The position numbers and the translations under genes were made by a program. Of a DNA stretch of 33,738 bases, positions 24,931 to 33,738 are shown piece after piece (position 1 is the stretch's first letter; each line of letters starts with the position of its first letter). The stretch comes from Geobacteraceae bacterium (GTDB taxonomy: Bacteria; Desulfobacterota; Desulfuromonadia; Geobacterales; DSM-12255). The stretch is taken from contig JACABD010000012.1 in NCBI GenBank assembly GCA_013377075.1, positions 1-33,738 on the forward strand. Direction: 5' to 3'. The notes beneath the pieces were generated by a model. It was not told where the DNA came from, made no database searches, and saw only the letters and a list, made by a program, of their open reading frames with translations.

Positions 24931-25947
24931 ATGAAACCGCTTCGTTTTTTGCTGCTTGCTTTAATTTTACTGTTACCTACAGTCTCTCTGGCAAAGGAGA
25001 CTAAAGACATCTCCTTCTCCTTCAAGAATGCTGAAGCCGTAATCTTCAGCCACGACTTCCACCTTGAAAAATACAACAACAACTGCCGCATCTGCCACAA
25101 TGCCATATTCAACCTGAAGAGCAAAACCAAGTTCACCATGGCTGACATGGAAAAGACCAAGTCCTGCGGCGCCTGCCACTCAGGAGTTAAAGCGTTCAGC
25201 GTCAAGAATGAAAAGGACTGCACCAAGTGCCACAAAGGGAAGCCAAAAACCGTAACATTCAAAGTCAAAGGTGCTACGGACGTTGCTTTCAGCCACGATT
25301 CGCACGTCTCTAAGGCCGGCCTCTCCTGCAAAAGCTGTCACGACGGCAAGATCATCACCGGCAAGGATAAGAATGTTTCCATGGCACAGATGGAGAAAGG
25401 CAGAACCTGCGGCGCCTGCCACAACGGCAAGAGAGCATTCACTGTTGCCGGGAACTGCGGCAACTGCCACAAGGGGATGAGCCCTCGTGAAATCACCTTC
25501 AAACTCAAAGGCGTTACTGATGCGGTATTCAGTCATCAGGTACACATCGGCATGTTCAAGTGTCCTGACTGCCACACAAAAGTCTTTCCGTACAAGGCCG
25601 GATCACTCAAGGCAACCATGGCAAGTATGGAAACCGGCAAATCCTGCGGCACCTGCCACAATGGCAAGGATGCATTCACCGTAGCCGGTGAGTGCGACAA
25701 GTGCCACAAAGGGTACAAACCAGGCATTATCCCTTTCAAGACCGAAGCCGGTGACGCAAGCTTCAGCCACGAATTCCATCTCGGCATGTTCAAGTGCGCC
25801 GACTGCCATACCAAGGTATTCCCGTTCAAAGCAGGAGCACTCAAAGCCAAGATGGGCGATATGGACAAAGGTAAATCCTGCGGCGCCTGCCATAACGGCA
25901 AAGACGCGTTCAAGACCGAAGATTGCATCAAATGTCACAAGATGTAA
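24931..25947 (+). CDS. Periplasmic dodecahaem cytochrome of four c7-type triheme domains
   Basis: A 338-residue exported cytochrome. The signal peptide is residues 1-21 (cleavage after VSLA). Twelve CxxCH sites start at Cys 52, 79, 97, 133, 160, 176, 211, 239, 255, 289, 317 and 332. They fall into four repeats of about 78 residues, each with FSHxxH (distal ligands, e.g. His41/44, 122/125, 202/205, 280/283), a first CxxCH, then CGxCHxG, and a closing CxxCHK. This is the linear 'nanowire' arrangement of c7-like domains known from Geobacter GSU1996. The protein probably carries electrons across the periplasm. Repeats 3 and 4 are more alike than 1 and 2. It has its own promoter (24856-24884) and terminator (25977-26004). 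Confidence 0.93.
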   Translation: MKPLRFLLLALILLLPTVSLAKETKDISFSFKNAEAVIFSHDFHLEKYNNNCRICHNAIFNLKSKTKFTMADMEKTKSCGACHSGVKAFSVKNEKDCTKCHKGKPKTVTFKVKGATDVAFSHDSHVSKAGLSCKSCHDGKIITGKDKNVSMAQMEKGRTCGACHNGKRAFTVAGNCGNCHKGMSPREITFKLKGVTDAVFSHQVHIGMFKCPDCHTKVFPYKAGSLKATMASMETGKSCGTCHNGKDAFTVAGECDKCHKGYKPGIIPFKTEAGDASFSHEFHLGMFKCADCHTKVFPFKAGALKAKMGDMDKGKSCGACHNGKDAFKTEDCIKCHKM

Positions 25948-26082: not shown

Positions 26083-27282
26083 ATGCGTAGAAGTACAAGC
26101 CTTATTACCATACTTGCTCTTTTTGTTTCAGCCTCTTTAGCTACTGCGGCTGCAAAACCTGCAAAACCGGCGGCAGTTAAACCCGCTGAAAGCAAGCCTG
26201 TTGAGAACTCACTCAAGCAGTCTGATCTTGCCCGCAAACTGGTGGATGCGCTCGGACTTGCTGAGGGGCTTCCGGAAAAGCCTGCTGAAAAAGATTATCT
26301 GCTGATACTAGGAGGAGAGAGAACCTTCAGATTCGAAGCAGAAGAGACTTTTGACCGCCAGAGCGACCTGGCAATAGTTCGTGAACTGCCGCTCTTCGGA
26401 GCTTTTTCCGGCAAAGGATGGCTGCATGCAACCACAACCCAGACTGCAGTTCACTTCAAGGTCCTCATCCCGGTTTCCGGAAAATACATTTTTAAAGTCA
26501 CTGCTAAAGGGGATAGCCAGATCTGGTCAGTTGCCGGCAAAGCGTTTCGGCAAAGTTTTGGCGATAAATTCAGCGAAACCAGTCTTGGGCAGGTATTCAT
26601 CCCGGCCGGGGAACTGGAGTTCAACGCCCTCCTCCCGCCGGATGGTGCTGTTGACTCCTTTGTCTTTGTCGCACCGGCAAATTCCCCTGTGGAGCCCCTT
26701 GCCGGGTGGGCCACCTCTGCCCCCCTGACTGCCGCAGCACTGAACGAGGTTTTTGCCTCTAGCCTTGGCATTGAATCATCTCTGCCCGATGACAGCAGCT
26801 ATACTGCAAAAACAGTTGAAGCCGCATCACTGTCCAAGATACCCCAGACAGCCCGCCTGACCGACACCCAGCTGCTTGGAAAGCCGGTTGCAGCCAATTG
26901 GCTCAGGGCTTTTCAGACTGGGGCCAACATCTCTCTGCCAATCGACATTGAATCCTTGGGCGTCTACAGGATCAGGGTCAGAGCTGTCGGCAGTGAACTG
27001 ACTGCCGGTTTTGGCAATAGAACAGTCACAAAACCGCTCACAGCCTCACTCAACTGGGTGGACCTTGGAACCTTCAGACTACCAAAAGGGACCAACAGTC
27101 TGAACCTGAAACTGCCTCCGACCGGAGGAGTTGACGTAATCGAAGTCACCAAAAAGCTGTCAAAAGCTGCTGACTACGCTGCCATTACCAAAACCGGTAT
27201 CAGCGGTGACTCCATCGTGAAGCCGGACGAACTTGAAAAAGCCGTCAAATTGCTACAGGAAATGTTTAAAGAGAAAAAGTGA
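26083..27282 (+). CDS. Secreted protein with two related beta-sandwich-like modules, unknown function
   Basis: A 399-residue protein. The start is ATG 26083 (GGAGG 7 bases upstream); an in-frame start at 26011 lies in the preceding terminator region. Residues 1-23 form a signal peptide (MRRSTSLITILALFVSASLA). A Lys/Pro/Ala spacer follows (24-45). Two similar modules can be seen: about 85-205 (VSGKYIFKVTAKGDSQIWSV ... LGQVFIPAGELEFNALLPPD ... AVDSFVF) and about 270-370 (LGVYRIRVRAVGSELTAGFG ... LGTFRLPKGTNSLNLKLPPT ... GVDVIEV). The pattern Y-x-(F/I)-(K/R)-V...LG-x-(V/F)...G...(L/F)...LPP-x-G-x-(V)-D resembles carbohydrate-binding jelly-roll modules. No catalytic residues were recognised. The stop overlaps the comEC GTG start (GTGA). 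I do not know its function. Confidence 0.75.
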   Translation: MRRSTSLITILALFVSASLATAAAKPAKPAAVKPAESKPVENSLKQSDLARKLVDALGLAEGLPEKPAEKDYLLILGGERTFRFEAEETFDRQSDLAIVRELPLFGAFSGKGWLHATTTQTAVHFKVLIPVSGKYIFKVTAKGDSQIWSVAGKAFRQSFGDKFSETSLGQVFIPAGELEFNALLPPDGAVDSFVFVAPANSPVEPLAGWATSAPLTAAALNEVFASSLGIESSLPDDSSYTAKTVEAASLSKIPQTARLTDTQLLGKPVAANWLRAFQTGANISLPIDIESLGVYRIRVRAVGSELTAGFGNRTVTKPLTASLNWVDLGTFRLPKGTNSLNLKLPPTGGVDVIEVTKKLSKAADYAAITKTGISGDSIVKPDELEKAVKLLQEMFKEKK

Positions 27283-29717
27283 TCCGCTTCTTTAAACTAC
27301 CACCCCTTCTGTTGCCGCTCTGCCTCTTCATCTTCGGCATTGCGGCAGCGGGAAGCATCGGCCTGCACATCCCGCCTCTCCTTCTATTTTTATCCTCACT
27401 GCTCACAGTAGCACTCCTCTTAACCCGGATGAATAGCGCTTTCATGGCAGCCCTGGGCCTAGCTCTGTTTGCAGCCGGCAACCTGATGATTCAGCCACTA
27501 CTGCAAAACGGCAGGGAAGCCAGGGCACTGCTGGAGCAGGTTCAGAGCTCGAAGTTAGCTGTTGAAGGAATTATTGTACGCCGCCCGGAAGCAAAAGATG
27601 GTGGCTGCAAGATAACCATAAGACCGACATCTGTTCAAACAGAAGAGAGCCTGAAGATTGACATCGGCTCCGGACTACTTCTGTTGCGGATAGGACAAGG
27701 TGGCAGCTCTTTTGCCAGCGGCGACAGAATCAGTTTTACAGGAAAATTGAAGCGGCCAAGAAACTTCGGAATGCCGTTTGAGTTCGATTCAGAGCGCTTT
27801 TACGCTCTCAAAAACATCAGTGCGACAACCTTTGTAAAGAGTGATGCCGACATCAGGCTCTTAAAAGCAGGGGAAGAGTCGAGATTTCAGCGCCATTTCG
27901 ACCTGACCGCAGCAGAGATCGGCAGATTCATAATGAACCGTTTCCCAACTGTCGAAGGTGGTGTCTTGAAGGCTCTTCTGATTGGCGACGTTTCCGATAT
28001 TCCCCAGGCAACCAAGGATCAGTACAGCCGCACAGGAGTCAACCACATCCTTTCAATATCCGGCTTTCATGTCGGCATAATCGCCCTTGCCCTCTTTCAG
28101 CTCTGGTCGTCCATTGCAAAGCTCTTCCCGACACTCCTTCTGCAGATCAACTTCAGGCGCCTTGCCCTCCTTGTCTCAATCCCGCTGATCACCTATTACA
28201 TGTTCCTCTCCGGCGCAGCCCCGGCAACAGCCCGCTCTGTAATCATGCTCTGCCTTCTGGCCCTGTCACTTCTGCTGGAGAGAGAGTCAGATTCGGTGAA
28301 CATGCTCTGTCTGGCAGCATTCGCACTTCTGCTCATCAACCCTGCATACCTTTATGATGTCTCGTTTCAGCTCTCCTTCCTTGCACTTTGGGGTCTCACA
28401 TCTCTGGCACCTGTTTTGTCAAGACCATTTGACTCACTATCACCGGGATGGATTTACAAGCTGATCATTTTTGCGACTGCTTCTACAGCCGCTGTGGCGG
28501 TCACAGTACTGCCCGTCGCCTATTACTTTCAGCAGAGTTCCCTCACCGGGATCATCAGCAATTTCTTCATAGTCCCTCTCCTTGGCTATGGCGCCGTTGT
28601 AACCGGTTTTACAGCCCTCCCCTTCATCTATATCTCGCCGATGATTGCCTGGTTTCTGCTTTACGTTGCCGCAGCTCTGACAAAAATCTCTGACCTCATC
28701 ATAGCCGCTCTTGCCCAAATACCGGTTCTCCCCCTGTTCATACCGTCTGAGCTGGAGATAGGCATTTTTCTGGCTGCCATGCTGCTAATCACCATCATCA
28801 GAAATCATCTGGCAAAATCGGCTCTACTTGTAACTGTTCCACTTTTTCTGCTCATGCTCCAGCAGCTCCCGGCTAAGGAGAGTACCTCTGCCCTGAGGAT
28901 CGATTTTTTCAGTGTCGGCCAAGGGGAATCGTCCTTGATAACATTTGCCGATGGCAAAAAAATGCTCATCGACGGTGGCGGCGCCCTCTATGAATCAGGC
29001 TGGGATATCGGCAGGCATCTCCTTTTGCCGACACTGCGGAAAATTGGGGTAAGGCGTATTGATTATCTGGTACTGACCCACTCTCATCCCGACCATATGC
29101 AAGGGGTTATTGCTGTTCTTGAAGCTCTGCCGGTGGGTGAGTTCTGGGAAAGCGGGCTGAACAGCGGCAATGAGTACAAAAAACTTCAAGAGCTTTTACA
29201 GACAAAAGGGATCCCGGTAAAAATCCTCAGCAGCGGCTTGCCACCGTTTGAGATCGCCGGAACAAGGATAAGATGCCTCCATCCGGTTGACGCTGAAAAA
29301 TCGGGTAGTGACATGAACGAGACCTCCCTGACACTTCGCTTTGAAACCGGAAGTTTTTCAGCCCTGTTTACCGGTGACATCGGCTTTGAGGCCGAAGCAC
29401 AGATTTTACGGCAAAAAGGGGATATAAGGTCAACTCTCCTTAAAGTTCCACACCACGGAAGTCGATACTCAACGGGACCGGATTTTCTCGACGCAGTAGC
29501 ACCAGAAATCGCACTGATATCCGCAGGGTTTGGCAACAGCTTTGGACTCCCATCGGTAGAGACCGTAAATCAGCTGGCAGCGAAACGAATCAGAGTTTTT
29601 CGAACTGACCTTGACGGAACCGTAACCATTAATGTGCAAAATGATTCTAAAAAGCCTGCCATCTCTACCCAAAAAGGCAAATCAATTGACAGTGGCACTA
29701 ATGTTCTGTATTTTTAG
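27279..29717 (+). CDS. comEC: ComEC/Rec2-family DNA uptake channel with metallo-beta-lactamase domain
   Basis: An 812-residue inner-membrane protein. N-terminal helices and an OB-like domain (about 60-160, ending FGMPFEFDSERFYALKNISA) come first. The Competence domain follows, with SRTGVNHILSISGFHVGIIA (about 250-265) and about eight to ten helices to residue 530. The C-terminal metallo-beta-lactamase-like domain carries VLTHSHPDHMQGV (His601, His603, Asp605, His606), FTGDIGFEAE and KVPHHGSRYSTG. ComEC carries transforming single-stranded DNA across the inner membrane, and the MBL domain is thought to be a nuclease. Length is full. The GTG start overlaps the previous stop. No other competence gene is in the window. 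Confidence 0.93.
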   Translation: MIRFFKLPPLLLPLCLFIFGIAAAGSIGLHIPPLLLFLSSLLTVALLLTRMNSAFMAALGLALFAAGNLMIQPLLQNGREARALLEQVQSSKLAVEGIIVRRPEAKDGGCKITIRPTSVQTEESLKIDIGSGLLLLRIGQGGSSFASGDRISFTGKLKRPRNFGMPFEFDSERFYALKNISATTFVKSDADIRLLKAGEESRFQRHFDLTAAEIGRFIMNRFPTVEGGVLKALLIGDVSDIPQATKDQYSRTGVNHILSISGFHVGIIALALFQLWSSIAKLFPTLLLQINFRRLALLVSIPLITYYMFLSGAAPATARSVIMLCLLALSLLLERESDSVNMLCLAAFALLLINPAYLYDVSFQLSFLALWGLTSLAPVLSRPFDSLSPGWIYKLIIFATASTAAVAVTVLPVAYYFQQSSLTGIISNFFIVPLLGYGAVVTGFTALPFIYISPMIAWFLLYVAAALTKISDLIIAALAQIPVLPLFIPSELEIGIFLAAMLLITIIRNHLAKSALLVTVPLFLLMLQQLPAKESTSALRIDFFSVGQGESSLITFADGKKMLIDGGGALYESGWDIGRHLLLPTLRKIGVRRIDYLVLTHSHPDHMQGVIAVLEALPVGEFWESGLNSGNEYKKLQELLQTKGIPVKILSSGLPPFEIAGTRIRCLHPVDAEKSGSDMNETSLTLRFETGSFSALFTGDIGFEAEAQILRQKGDIRSTLLKVPHHGSRYSTGPDFLDAVAPEIALISAGFGNSFGLPSVETVNQLAAKRIRVFRTDLDGTVTINVQNDSKKPAISTQKGKSIDSGTNVLYF

Positions 29718-29766: not shown

Positions 29767-31119
29767 ATGGAAAAAATCCTGATTGTTGAAGATGATGCCT
29801 TTTTCAGAGAGATATTTTCTGATCTCCTTAGCGAAGACGGGTATCAGGTTGACACGGCATCCTCTGGGAATGAAGCGCTTAAAATGCTTGAAGCCGGTAA
29901 GTACCAGCTTGTGGTCACAGACATGGTGCTTCAGGACATCAGCGGGCTCGACATCCTCTCACGCGCAAAGCAGATGGACTCTGACATTGAGGTAATAGTT
30001 GTAACAGGTTACGGCAATATGGAGTCCGCGATCTATGCCCTTAAAAACGGCGCCCGCGATTATCTTGTCAAACCGATCAGCCATGACGAGTTCAAACATG
30101 TTGTCCGCCTCTCAATGGAACAGAGAAGACTCCTCAACGAAAACCAGGGGTTAAAGGATCAGATCCGTCTTTTCCAGACATGCCAGACAATAGCCAACTG
30201 CATCGAAATTGAAAGAATTCTCTCGCTGGTTCTTGAAGCGGCACTTAAAGAGACCGGGTCTCACCAGGGTTTCTCATGCATACGCGATGCGGGCAGGGAA
30301 CTCTTTCTTATCGACGCTAAAGGGATGACTGCTGAGGCTGCAGAAGCACTGAATGAACAGTTGAAAAAGTGCTTCAACTGGGAGGAAGAGTCTTTCTTCG
30401 AGCCGATGAGCCTGACCGTCGAACCGGGCAAGGATCTACTTCTTTTGCCGCTCAGCCACAAATCACCCATACAAGGGATCGTTGCCCTGATGAACCAGGA
30501 TAAAACTTTCCCGATAAGACTAAACATGGGGAATGTCCACTTTTTGATGGAACAGTCTGCCCTTGCACTTGACAATGCCGGAAGGTACTCCGTTGCCAAG
30601 GATCTGCTCAATATCGACGAATTGACAGGGCTCTACAACTACAGATACCTTGAAATTGCCCTTGAACGGGAAATGAAGCGGGCTGAGAGATACGGCCTCA
30701 GTATGTCGGTCATCTTCCTTGATGTTGACATGCTCAAACTGGTCAATGACACCTATGGGCACCTTGTCGGCAGCCGTGTACTCAAGGAGGTTGCCTCCGT
30801 AATCAAAAGCTCTGTCCGTGAAGTCGACATTGTCATCAGATACGGCGGTGATGAATACACCATCATCCTGATTGAGACCGGAAAACAGGGTGCGGCCATA
30901 GTCGCAGAACGTATCAGAAAAACAATCGCCAATCAGAATTTCATCCTCGGTGAAAACCTCGAAGTAAAACTCACGGCAAGTCTGGGATTTGCCTGCTATC
31001 CTGAAGACACGAAATCAAAACTCGAACTGCTGGAAATGGCTGACAGAGCCATGTATTTCGGCAAGGAGAGTGGCAAAAACACTGTCTCTCACATCTCTGA
31101 AAGCATTGAAAAACAGTAA
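29767..31119 (+). CDS. gacA: REC-GAF-GGDEF cyclic dinucleotide synthase, Hypr (cGAMP) type
   Basis: A 450-residue protein. Residues 1-120 are a receiver domain (Asp9/Asp10, phospho-acceptor Asp52 in TDMVLQD, Thr80, Lys102). About 130-275 is a GAF-like sensor region. About 283-445 is the GGDEF domain (DELTGLYNYRYLEIALERE, FLDVDMLKLVNDTYGHLVGS). The signature is GGDEY (360-364), with an I-site RxxD at Arg351-Asp354. At residue 336 there is Ser (GHLVGSR) where c-di-GMP synthases have Asp (GHxxGD). That replacement marks Hypr GGDEF enzymes, which accept ATP as well as GTP and make 3',3'-cGAMP, as shown for Geobacter GacA. The start may be ATG 29767 or TTG 29764 (AGGGG at 29751-29755). It lies 22 bases before hisS. 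Confidence 0.85.
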   Translation: MEKILIVEDDAFFREIFSDLLSEDGYQVDTASSGNEALKMLEAGKYQLVVTDMVLQDISGLDILSRAKQMDSDIEVIVVTGYGNMESAIYALKNGARDYLVKPISHDEFKHVVRLSMEQRRLLNENQGLKDQIRLFQTCQTIANCIEIERILSLVLEAALKETGSHQGFSCIRDAGRELFLIDAKGMTAEAAEALNEQLKKCFNWEEESFFEPMSLTVEPGKDLLLLPLSHKSPIQGIVALMNQDKTFPIRLNMGNVHFLMEQSALALDNAGRYSVAKDLLNIDELTGLYNYRYLEIALEREMKRAERYGLSMSVIFLDVDMLKLVNDTYGHLVGSRVLKEVASVIKSSVREVDIVIRYGGDEYTIILIETGKQGAAIVAERIRKTIANQNFILGENLEVKLTASLGFACYPEDTKSKLELLEMADRAMYFGKESGKNTVSHISESIEKQ

Positions 31120-31141: not shown

Positions 31142-32389
31142 GTGGCAATAACCGCAATCAAAGGCTTCAACGACATACTCCCCTCTGAAATCGAAAAGTG
31201 GCAGCACATTGAAAAAACAGCCAGAGATGTTTTCGGCTGCTATGGATTTTCCGAGATACGGGTTCCTATCATGGAAAAGACCGAGCTCTTTTGCCGCTCC
31301 ATCGGTGATGCCACAGATATAGTTGAAAAAGAGATGTACACCTTCACTGACAAGGGAGACAACCGGGTGACTCTCCGCCCTGAAGGGACTGCCGGTGTCA
31401 TGAGGGCATTTATCGAACACAAGCTCTATGCCGCAGACCCGGTCAGCAAGCTGTTCTACATGGGGCCGATGTTTCGCTATGAACGTCCGCAAAAAGGGCG
31501 CTACCGCCAGTTTCACCAGATAGGCGCAGAAGTTACCGGCGTTTCCGACCCGAAAGTCGATGCCCAGACCCTGACAATGCTGTCCCACTTCTTCTCGGAA
31601 CTGGGACTTGACGAGCCTTCACTTGAGATAAACTCCCTTGGCTGTCCTGAGTGCAGGCCTGCCTACCGAGAAATTCTCAAGGATTTTCTCCGCCAGAAAC
31701 TTGATACACTCTGTGAAGACTGTCAGCGACGACTCGACACTAATCCGCTGCGCGCCCTGGACTGCAAGGTGGAAAAATGCAAAGTGGCAACAGCGGATGC
31801 TCCGGCAATGCTGGAACACCTCTGCACAGCCTGTGACACTCATTTTACAGAGACCCGTAGCTACCTCGATCTCGTCTCGACCGGTTACCGGATAAACAGC
31901 CGCATGGTCAGGGGGCTTGACTACTACACCAGAACCACGTTCGAAATGATAACCGGGCTTCTCGGCTCCCAGAGCGCTGTCGCAGCTGGCGGGCGTTATG
32001 ACGGTCTCATCTCCGATCTTGGCGGCCCTTCAGTTCCCGGAATCGGCTTTGCAATGGGTGTTGAGCGGATCGCCCTTCTTCTTGACAACGCAAAGTTCCA
32101 GACATCGCCAGCACTCTTCATTGTCGCCCTTGGCGAAGAGGCTCAAAAACGGGCGTTCTGCCTCTCAACCGAGCTTCAGCGGGCAGGCGTATCCGTTGAA
32201 TTCGACTACGAAGGTAAAAGCATGAAAAGCCAGATGAGAAGGGCTGACAAGCTCTCTTGCGGCTACACACTCATCATCGGTGAATCTGAACTGGCCTCAG
32301 GAGTCGCACCTTTGAAAGAGATGAAAACCGGCAATCAATTCGTAATAGCTCTTGATTCGAAGACCATCGCACAAGAACTAAAGAGCTGA
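31142..32389 (+). CDS. hisS: Histidyl-tRNA synthetase
   Basis: A 415-residue class II aminoacyl-tRNA synthetase. It starts at GTG 31142 with the family's AITAIKGFNDILPSE. Motif 2 is in FYMGPMFRYERPQKGRYRQF HQ (FRYERPQKGRYRQFHQ), the histidine-A motifs are LVSTGYRINSRMVRGLDYY and TTFE, and GGRYDGLISDLGG precedes motif 3 (GIGFAMGVERIALLL). The C-terminal anticodon-binding domain begins near 325 (ALFIVALGEEAQKRAFCLST). Length is normal. An AAAGG box lies 9-10 bases before the GTG. Confidence 0.97.
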   Translation: MAITAIKGFNDILPSEIEKWQHIEKTARDVFGCYGFSEIRVPIMEKTELFCRSIGDATDIVEKEMYTFTDKGDNRVTLRPEGTAGVMRAFIEHKLYAADPVSKLFYMGPMFRYERPQKGRYRQFHQIGAEVTGVSDPKVDAQTLTMLSHFFSELGLDEPSLEINSLGCPECRPAYREILKDFLRQKLDTLCEDCQRRLDTNPLRALDCKVEKCKVATADAPAMLEHLCTACDTHFTETRSYLDLVSTGYRINSRMVRGLDYYTRTTFEMITGLLGSQSAVAAGGRYDGLISDLGGPSVPGIGFAMGVERIALLLDNAKFQTSPALFIVALGEEAQKRAFCLSTELQRAGVSVEFDYEGKSMKSQMRRADKLSCGYTLIIGESELASGVAPLKEMKTGNQFVIALDSKTIAQELKS

Positions 32390-32399
32390 CTGCTCTGCC

Positions 32400-33491
32400 A
32401 TGGGATCTGCACCGGCAAGAATAAGCATAATCGCAATCTTAATCCTCTGCATCAGCCTTTTGCACTATCTCACCCCTCTCCACCTCCACTACCTCCATGA
32501 TATCTTTCAGCGTTTCTACTACATCCCGATAATCCTCTCGGCCCTCTGGTTCGGCTTTCGTGGTGGGCTGGCATCAGCAATTGCGGTCAGCATCATCTAC
32601 ACCCCCCATATACTTTTTCAGTGGGGCGACCATGTCTCCATGGAGATTGAAAAATACCTGGAGATCGTTCTCTACAATATTGTCGGCGGCATAACCGGCC
32701 TACTCGCCCAGCGGGAAAAAGAGCGAAGCATCGAGTTGCAAAAAACTGCAAAAGGGCTTGAGGAGTCATATCAGAAGCTTCAACTGCAGTCGGAAAGGAT
32801 TCTCGTTGTGGAAGAACAGCTAAGGCGTGCTGAACGCCTCTCTACACTCGGCGAGATGGGTGCAGTCCTGGCTCACGAAATCCGCAATCCACTCGGCTCG
32901 ATCAGAGGGACTGCCGAAATTCTTAAGGACGACTTTCCCCCCGGATCTGCCAAGCATGAATTCATCGAGATCCAGATTAAAGAGACGGAACGACTGAACA
33001 ATGTTGTAGAAGATTTTCTCCGCATGGCGAGACAGCAGCCGCTGGAATTGAAGGAGTGTTCCATTGCTGAAGAGCTGCGGACAATATTCAGACTTGCGGA
33101 AAACCAGGCCAAAACAGCCGGAGTCAGGATTGTGCCTGCCTTTACAGCTGATGGTCTCCCTATAAAAGGGGATGGTGAAAAGCTCAGACAGGCATTTCTC
33201 AACATAATGATAAATGCCATCCAGGCGACTCCGCCAGACGGCAGTGTAACAATTGCACTTGAGAGAAGTGACTCAGGGGTTGCGATTACCTTTAGTGATA
33301 GTGGCATCGGCATCGCAACAGAGGAGCTTGAGAAGATTTTCGAGCCGTTCTACACGACAAAGAGCGATGGCACCGGTCTTGGGCTGGCCATCACCAGGAA
33401 AATCATCGAAGGCCACGGCGGCAGGATAGATATATGCAGTGAAAAAGGCAAAGGAACACAGGTTTGCATAAGATTGCCGGGAGCGAAATGA
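32400..33491 (+). CDS. Membrane-bound sensor histidine kinase (NtrB/AtoS-like)
   Basis: A 363-residue kinase. Residues about 8-102 contain three to four transmembrane helices with very little periplasmic loop (IIAILILCISLLHYL, FYYIPIILSALWFGFRGGLA, VLYNIVGGITGLLAQ). A coiled-coil linker covers about 104-145. The HisKA H-box is VLAHEIRNPLGSIRGTAEIL with His159. The ATPase domain has the N-box around Asn272 (INAIQATP), G1 DSGIGI (300-305) and G2 GTGLGLAI (324-331). The signal is probably sensed in or at the membrane; no PAS or HAMP domain is seen. The RBS is weak and lies just after a small hairpin (32382-32396) over the hisS stop. Its own stop overlaps the next start as ATGA, so the pair with the following response regulator is certain. 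Confidence 0.92.
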   Translation: MGSAPARISIIAILILCISLLHYLTPLHLHYLHDIFQRFYYIPIILSALWFGFRGGLASAIAVSIIYTPHILFQWGDHVSMEIEKYLEIVLYNIVGGITGLLAQREKERSIELQKTAKGLEESYQKLQLQSERILVVEEQLRRAERLSTLGEMGAVLAHEIRNPLGSIRGTAEILKDDFPPGSAKHEFIEIQIKETERLNNVVEDFLRMARQQPLELKECSIAEELRTIFRLAENQAKTAGVRIVPAFTADGLPIKGDGEKLRQAFLNIMINAIQATPPDGSVTIALERSDSGVAITFSDSGIGIATEELEKIFEPFYTTKSDGTGLGLAITRKIIEGHGGRIDICSEKGKGTQVCIRLPGAK

Positions 33492-33738
33492 GCCATAAAA
33501 TCCTCATAATTGATGATGACGCTTCGCTACGACGTGTACTTGAGTACAATCTCCATGAGGCCGGCTATGAAGTCACAGCCGCGGCTTCAGGAGAGGAAGG
33601 GCTCTACTTTCTGAAAAGTGAGCCCTACACGCTTGTCATTTCTGATATGAAAATGCCCGGCATGGATGGCATGGAGCTTCTTAAAAGGGTTAAAGAGCTG
33701 TACCCCGAAACACTCGTTATCATCATCACAGCTTTCGG
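33488..33738 (+). CDS. Response regulator, NtrC-like (partial, 3' end outside window)
   Basis: The first 83 residues are present. They form most of a receiver domain: acid pocket in KILIIDDDASLRRVL (Asp9-11), phospho-acceptor Asp53 in ISDMKMPGMDGMELL, and the conserved Thr81 in VIIITAF just before the window ends. It overlaps the kinase stop by four bases (ATGA) and is that kinase's cognate partner. The kinase type suggests a sigma-54-activating NtrC-family regulator, but the output domain is not visible. Confidence 0.88.
   Translation, partial: MSHKILIIDDDASLRRVLEYNLHEAGYEVTAAASGEEGLYFLKSEPYTLVISDMKMPGMDGMELLKRVKELYPETLVIIITAF

Follow-up and report, generated by a model that had tools for sequence, protein, structure and literature searches.

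A GGDEF domain with serine at the position where diguanylate cyclases have aspartate may make either c-di-GMP or 3',3'-cGAMP, and the question raised by the locus studied here is which of these applies. The window, i.e., the whole stretch of DNA that was analysed, is 33,738 nucleotides long and comes from a Geobacteraceae bacterium; a first-pass annotation of it had proposed that the gene at 29767-31119 encodes a Hypr GGDEF enzyme orthologous to GacA of Geobacter. GacA is a known enzyme, whose cGAMP product switches on genes of surface electron transfer. We consider it highly probable (about 0.9) that the window gene is a gacA orthologue, belonging to a bacterium of the Geobacter lineage and encoding a Hypr cyclase that makes cGAMP and acts via GEMM-Ib riboswitches. 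What is shown here comprises the sequence, domains, key residues, gene order and riboswitch sequences; the GacA/cGAMP system, reported for G. sulfurreducens and G. metallireducens, is extended to an uncharacterised relative.

Gene and domain architecture

The open reading frame list opens the frame at TTG 29764; starting from ATG 29767, the gene encodes a Rec-GAF-GGDEF protein of 450 amino acids (Table 1). Translation places S336 inside GHLVGSRVLKE and Y364 inside YGGDEY, with REVD at residues 351-354, five residues ahead of GGDEY, and confirms Ser336, the GGDEY signature, D52 and the RxxD motif as first annotated. The GGDEF domain (Pfam match at residues 282-438, E 4e-43) is indeed preceded by a receiver domain, matched by Pfam Response_reg at residues 4-113. 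The region between them had been called GAF-like. Pfam has no GAF match in this region of the window protein itself, but the corresponding regions of 32 orthologues include three that hit GAF_2 at a threshold of 0.1 (best E 1.6e-7). A structural model of the region (pLDDT 91.5) matches GAF-containing PDB chains by fold, among them the isolated GAF domain 3cit (Z 13.4, rmsd 2.9, 143 residues aligned) and phytochrome chains (Z up to 15.2). On both grounds, the label is right. The full-length model has pTM of 0.53, and the placement of domains relative to each other was left out of the evidence.

Table 1. Features of the window, with the two other Ser-type cyclase genes of the same genome
Feature	Position	Strand	Basis or remark
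comEC, upstream neighbour, conserved synteny	27279..29717	+	NCBIfam ComEC_Rec2, 260 bits vs cut-off 190
gacA orthologue: 450-aa Hypr cyclase with Rec-GAF-GGDEF layout	29767..31119	+	Best PDB match 6d9m, E 9e-67
Receiver domain, residues 4-113	29776..30105	+	Pfam PF00072 Response_reg, E 9e-28
D52, receiver phospho-acceptor position	29920..29922	+	Translation; Asp in 31/32 orthologues
Diverged GAF domain, residues 128-282	30148..30612	+	GAF_2 in 3/32 orthologues; fold match
Hypr GGDEF catalytic domain, residues 283-441	30613..31089	+	Pfam PF00990; 104/159 identical to 6d9m
Y292, cross-dimer base-stacking position (Tyr304 of GmGacA)	30640..30642	+	Alignment; Y in 36/50 orthologues
S336, selectivity position (Ser348 of GmGacA)	30772..30774	+	Alignment; Ser in 50/50 orthologues
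Primary I-site RxxD, R351-D354	30817..30828	+	Translation; 32-orthologue alignment
GGDEY signature, residues 360-364	30844..30858	+	Translation; orthologue tally
R382, second I-site Arg (by numbering R393 of GsGacA)	30910..30912	+	Same residue in 6d9m; invariant in 32 orthologues
hisS, downstream neighbour, conserved synteny	31142..32389	+	NCBIfam TIGR00442, 499 bits vs cut-off 287
Histidine kinase, possible partner	32400..33491	+	HisKA/HATPase_c
Response-regulator gene start, cut by window end	33488..33738	+	Translation; receiver nature by inspection
Soluble GAF-GGDEF protein, L016/L247	G000:C70:8924-9970 (L247:2922-4013)	-	GGDEF; Ser at cross-dimer position
HAMP-GGDDF protein, L025	G000:C116:71504-72883 (L025:664-2046)	+	Ser at selectivity position

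Comparison with GacA, PleD and other cyclases

By sequence, the window protein comes closest in the PDB to 6d9m, a structure of the GacA Hypr GGDEF domain from Geobacter metallireducens, with which it shares 104 of 159 residues; the runner-up follows at E of 2e-39. In most diguanylate cyclases, the residue that stacks across the dimer is Arg. Alignment with GacA and PleD, the check suggested in the first-pass annotation, pairs S336 with Ser348 of 6d9m and with Asp of PleD, so that Asp at the base-contacting position of the window protein is ruled out. Fourteen of 15 functional positions are identical to 6d9m, the sole difference being Y364, which is F in 6d9m; here the G. metallireducens domain and published numbering serve as the reference, G. 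sulfurreducens GacA lying outside the alignable sets. A fold search of the GGDEF domain also has 6d9m first (Z 25.7), with 4iob, another bacterial GGDEF domain, at 25.1; as the two are within 1 Z of each other, fold rank is not used as evidence. In G. metallireducens GacA, the nucleobase is contacted by Ser348 and Mg is bound by Asp374, Glu375 serves as the base acting across the dimer, and Tyr304 stacks across it (PMC6456294); their counterparts in the window protein are S336, D362, E363 and Y292, respectively.

The likeness to GacA (GSU1658 in G. sulfurreducens, Gmet_1914 in G. metallireducens) extends to the receiver and Hypr GGDEF domains, to the GAF domain (by the PDB name of Gmet_1914), to Ser at the selectivity position, Tyr at the cross-dimer position, the I-site arginines and D52 of the receiver, as well as to the GEMM-I riboswitches and the pilM target discussed below; a difference is GGDEY in place of the GGDEF of the G. 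metallireducens enzyme. PleD and other Rec-GGDEF diguanylate cyclases share the fold, the receiver input and the RxxD I-site, but have Asp at the selectivity position, GGEEF and a cross-dimer Arg where the window protein has Ser, GGDEY and Tyr. By the selectivity residue, then, which is Asp in canonical diguanylate cyclases of the PleD/WspR type, Ser336 places the protein outside that class, and it has the whole set of GacA-type Hypr marks: Ser at the selectivity position, GGDE[F/Y], a cross-dimer residue other than Arg, I-site arginines, the Rec-GAF-GGDEF layout, and the clade and gene order described in the next section. Bd0367 of Bdellovibrio, compared by its description (PMC9140294), is likewise a Ser-type Hypr GGDEF protein with an I-site, but belongs to another organism and has another role.

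Orthologues, family tree and gene order

We searched 58 genomes, comprising the window's own and others from its genus, family and order, and found the gacA orthologue in 50 of them, own included (it is split or lacks the start region in two, G046 and G025); the genomes without it are G006, G010, G013, G016, G018, G021, G027 and G052. The selectivity position is Ser in all 50 orthologues. In 32 aligned orthologues, chosen out of 60 full-length frames, S336, G360-E363, R351, D354 and R382 are invariant, so that S336 with GGDE is no chance pattern. The cross-dimer position varies: Y in 36 of the 50, H in 13 and Q in one. In the 13 orthologues with His for Tyr (e.g., L111, L116 and L121), the residue is not among the cross-dimer residues for which the portions of PMC6456294 drawn on give a product mix.

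A quick tree inferred from 125 GGDEF domains with the trait columns left out joins the GacA rows in one clade of 57 (SH-aLRT 93, with near-copies from two collections among the rows; G. sulfurreducens is outside the set), and GAF-type Ser rows form a separate clade of 20 (SH-aLRT 99). The domains were collected for their similarity to the window protein; the set contains some near-copies and does not include the HAMP-GGDDF type (L025 is absent); rows with more than 30 gaps, L210 among them, were dropped, and so were L018, L190 and L206 as copies. Among 48 full-length orthologues, comEC is upstream in 47, hisS is downstream in 46, and both are in place in 45. The nearest named relatives are metagenome-assembled genomes labelled Geobacter sp. 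(79 and 74% identity) and Deltaproteobacteria (74%). The first reading, of a Hypr GGDEF protein orthologous to GacA, with Ser at the base-contacting position and GEMM riboswitches in the host, is supported by the 6d9m alignment, the family tree, the gene order and the eight A-type riboswitches of the genome.

The GGDEY signature

The Tyr of GGDEY had been singled out as a residue that may tune product mix and feedback. Among the 50 orthologues, however, the signature is GGDEY in 46 and GGDEF in four, and according to the 2019 paper on these enzymes the Ser/Thr forms use GGDE[F/Y] exclusively (PMC6456294); between them, these two facts rule out GGDEY as a special variant. Given how common GGDEY is among the orthologues searched, it is the crystallised G. 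metallireducens enzyme, with GGDEF, that represents the less common form. A full-text search on Hypr enzymes and diguanylate cyclases matched 27 papers, and the word "GGDEY" occurs in none of the 20 that were listed.

In the 125-domain set, the third motif residue is Asp in all 77 Ser domains; GGEEF is found in none of these vs 32 of 45 Asp domains, and Arg at the position of Y292 in none vs 34 of 45, with two Thr rows and one Ala row standing outside the counts. These are not natural frequencies, because the set was gathered by similarity and is without the HAMP-GGDDF type; read from sequence, the Ser/Asp split in GGEEF and Arg is the published Hypr pattern (PMC6456294). Tyr in the fifth place of the motif is likewise associated with Ser (present in 59 of the 77 Ser domains and in none of the 45 Asp domains, the sample having been selected by similarity and its rows being non-independent), which is what could be said for the view that Tyr alters product ratio or feedback relative to GGDEF forms. 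This view is nonetheless very unlikely indeed to be correct: Tyr is the rule among the orthologues, F at the fifth place is seen in each of the two Ser clades, and F and Y were handled alike by the authors who described the family (PMC6456294). Neither the orthologues, nor the 125-domain set, nor the parts of PMC6456294 drawn on link this Tyr to product mix, and the tuning role is left with no observation in its support. The prevalence of GGDEY would make a Y/F comparison on a GacA protein meaningful, though no open question hinges on it.

GEMM-I riboswitches and the putative regulon

A search of the host genome for GEMM-Ib riboswitches had been suggested along with the Hypr assignment. The genome to which the window belongs (95.5% complete) has eight GEMM-I riboswitches over the Rfam cut-off, and the same search found no GEMM-I riboswitch in 14 control genomes. 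An A at the equivalent of G20 of Vc2 is what we take to be the mark of Ib, or cGAMP-type, aptamers; it is found at the corresponding model position 11 in 8/8 cases. The base at the G20 equivalent reportedly contributes to the choice between cyclic dinucleotides (PMC9262584). Six of the eight run directly into a terminator-like hairpin with a U run, in which the 3' strand of the aptamer takes part.

In L245, a riboswitch is followed by an HTH-like ORF, pilM (PF11104) and further ORFs that, by inspection and position, are in the pilNOP order. The riboswitch before the HTH-like ORF and pilM is arranged as in G. sulfurreducens, where gacA deletion lowers transcripts including those of a transcriptional regulator and the pilMNOP genes (PMC6456294). 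The tandem pair of L243 precedes an RCC1-repeat protein and then an ORF with three CXXCH motifs, which scores 22.8 as cytochrome c7, just below the Pfam cut-off of 24.8. Downstream of the riboswitch in L242 lies a large MBG-domain protein (by Pfam), the proteins downstream in L241 and L246 match no Pfam family, and the other tandem pair, L004/L008, is followed by a 64-aa ORF. At model position 9, presumably the ligand-intercalating base, both riboswitches of the latter pair (G000:C13:21515-21756) have C, in contrast to A in the remaining six.

A-type riboswitches are also carried by relatives that have no GacA orthologue, so the riboswitches alone do not point to this gene. The tally of bases in relatives covers the 49 of 60 fetched sites that have full flanks, the best-scoring sites having been given loci first; the other 11, which lie near contig ends, and any site that has no locus are not in it. 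Because of this selection, the mix of A and G among relatives is no census.

Other Ser-type cyclases and the possible sources of cGAMP

Seventeen GGDEF domains are encoded in the genome (18 search rows, two of which are one domain), with Ser at the selectivity position in three, Asp in 13 and Ala in one. The Ser-type genes are the gacA orthologue, a soluble GAF-GGDEF protein and a HAMP protein with GGDDF; G. sulfurreducens has been reported with one Ser-type gene besides GacA, and the genome at hand has two (PMC8835794). The GAF-GGDEF family is found in 21 of the 58 genomes at E <= 1e-60, own included, with Ser in 21/21. At E <= 1e-30, the HAMP protein has matches in 52 of the 58 genomes; at E <= 1e-100, in 49. 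Ser with GGDDF is seen in all 18 HAMP-GGDDF rows that were read by pattern (of 30, own included). In having Ser, GGDDF and HAMP, the HAMP protein fits the published description of GSU1937, which in G. sulfurreducens is the second enzyme that makes cGAMP (PMC8835794); proteins of this type differ from the window protein in membrane HAMP architecture, in GGDDF and in belonging to another protein family. The GGDEF part of L025 opens with SPLTRLPGN rather than with the usual start, and the protein has a weak match, below cut-off, to the Cas10 palm.

Among the eight genomes without gacA orthologue, the GAF-GGDEF family occurs in G006, G018 and G027, and HAMP-GGDDF matches at E <= 1e-127 in G010, G013, G016, G021 and G027, the matched stretch being interrupted by a single stop codon in G013, G016 and G021; Ser was read in the HAMP-GGDDF matches of G010, G013 and G016. 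Thr at the selectivity position with GGDEF is seen in L234 (G010) and L239 (G052), with 30 of 43 matches read.

Since the genome has two further Ser-type genes, cGAMP need not come mainly from the gacA orthologue. The latter might be minor or silent, with the HAMP-GGDDF protein or the GAF-GGDEF protein, both encoded in the genome, supplying cGAMP; in G. sulfurreducens grown with Fe(III) citrate, deletion of GSU1937 lowered the reporter by 70%, and that of gacA by 10% (PMC8835794). We regard this as unlikely: the catalytic residues of the window protein are intact and Ser is kept in every orthologue, which speaks against a decaying gene. It is also conceivable that a Ser-bearing GGDEF protein works in the cell mainly as a diguanylate cyclase, with cGAMP as a minor product. 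Hypr enzymes are promiscuous, and GacA itself is so in vitro; c-di-GMP output is higher for two published enzymes whose cross-dimer residue is Arg (PMC6456294), and Bd0367 forms cGAMP as well as c-di-GMP (PMC9140294). The window protein, however, has Tyr and not Arg at this position, GacA, which also has Tyr there, yields cGAMP in vivo (PMC6456294), and the riboswitches found in the genome are A-type without exception, all of which makes a mainly c-di-GMP output quite improbable.

A broader proposal is that cyclic-dinucleotide control by riboswitches is exclusively cGAMP-type in this bacterium, with three Ser-type cyclases feeding it from different inputs (Rec-GAF, soluble GAF and membrane HAMP-GGDDF); the GAF-GGDEF family would then be one of cGAMP synthases. 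We put this forward tentatively, at less than even odds; the portions of the cGAMP literature drawn on have no description of the GAF-GGDEF family in that role. The three Ser-type cyclases, together with a riboswitch set that has A at the G20 equivalent throughout, are the part of these results most worth following.

Regulation and proposed mechanism

The I-site had been noted as retained, and the phosphorylated protein as the form to assay. The retention is not special, as GacA has an I-site as well, where it is held down by c-di-GMP, and its R393A variant gives a 30-fold cGAMP reporter signal, while cGAMP levels of the D52A variant are like those of the wild type (PMC6456294). Both residues are kept in the window protein, as R382 (by 6d9m alignment and numbering) and D52; inhibition by c-di-GMP would thus be expected to matter more than phosphorylation of D52, which need not be required for cGAMP output if the protein behaves as GacA does.

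By analogy with GacA, from which product, inhibition, riboswitch ligand and regulon function are all carried over, the window protein is most likely a 3',3'-cGAMP synthase that is inhibited by c-di-GMP and feeds a riboswitch regulon. It would act as a homodimeric Hypr GGDEF cyclase with one purine NTP in each GGDEF half-site; Glu363 would serve as the base acting across the dimer, and Y292 may stack on the nucleobase of the partner, where it would lack the preference for guanine that Arg has. We expect mainly 3',3'-cGAMP as product, together with some c-di-GMP, and binding of c-di-GMP at the I-site (R351, D354, R382) would shut the enzyme down, while the Rec and GAF domains may modulate it in response to signals. 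The cGAMP produced would act on GEMM-Ib terminator riboswitches, including the one before the HTH-like ORF and pilM, and the tandem pair before the RCC1-repeat protein and the triheme-cytochrome ORF.

The histidine kinase gene behind hisS is a possible candidate for the partner kinase of the gacA orthologue; it adjoins its own regulator gene. Homologues of this kinase are found behind hisS in near relatives only (L028-L032), most loci reaching just 1,500 bases past the match, too short a stretch to be likely to reveal it.

Elsewhere in the window, the only Rfam match within the 33,738 nt is a tRNA. A protein of 398 amino acids (26086-27279, forward strand), matched by no Pfam or NCBIfam family, adjoins a multiheme cytochrome gene (24931-25947, forward strand) whose product has four triheme c7-type "nanowire" domains (TIGR04257).
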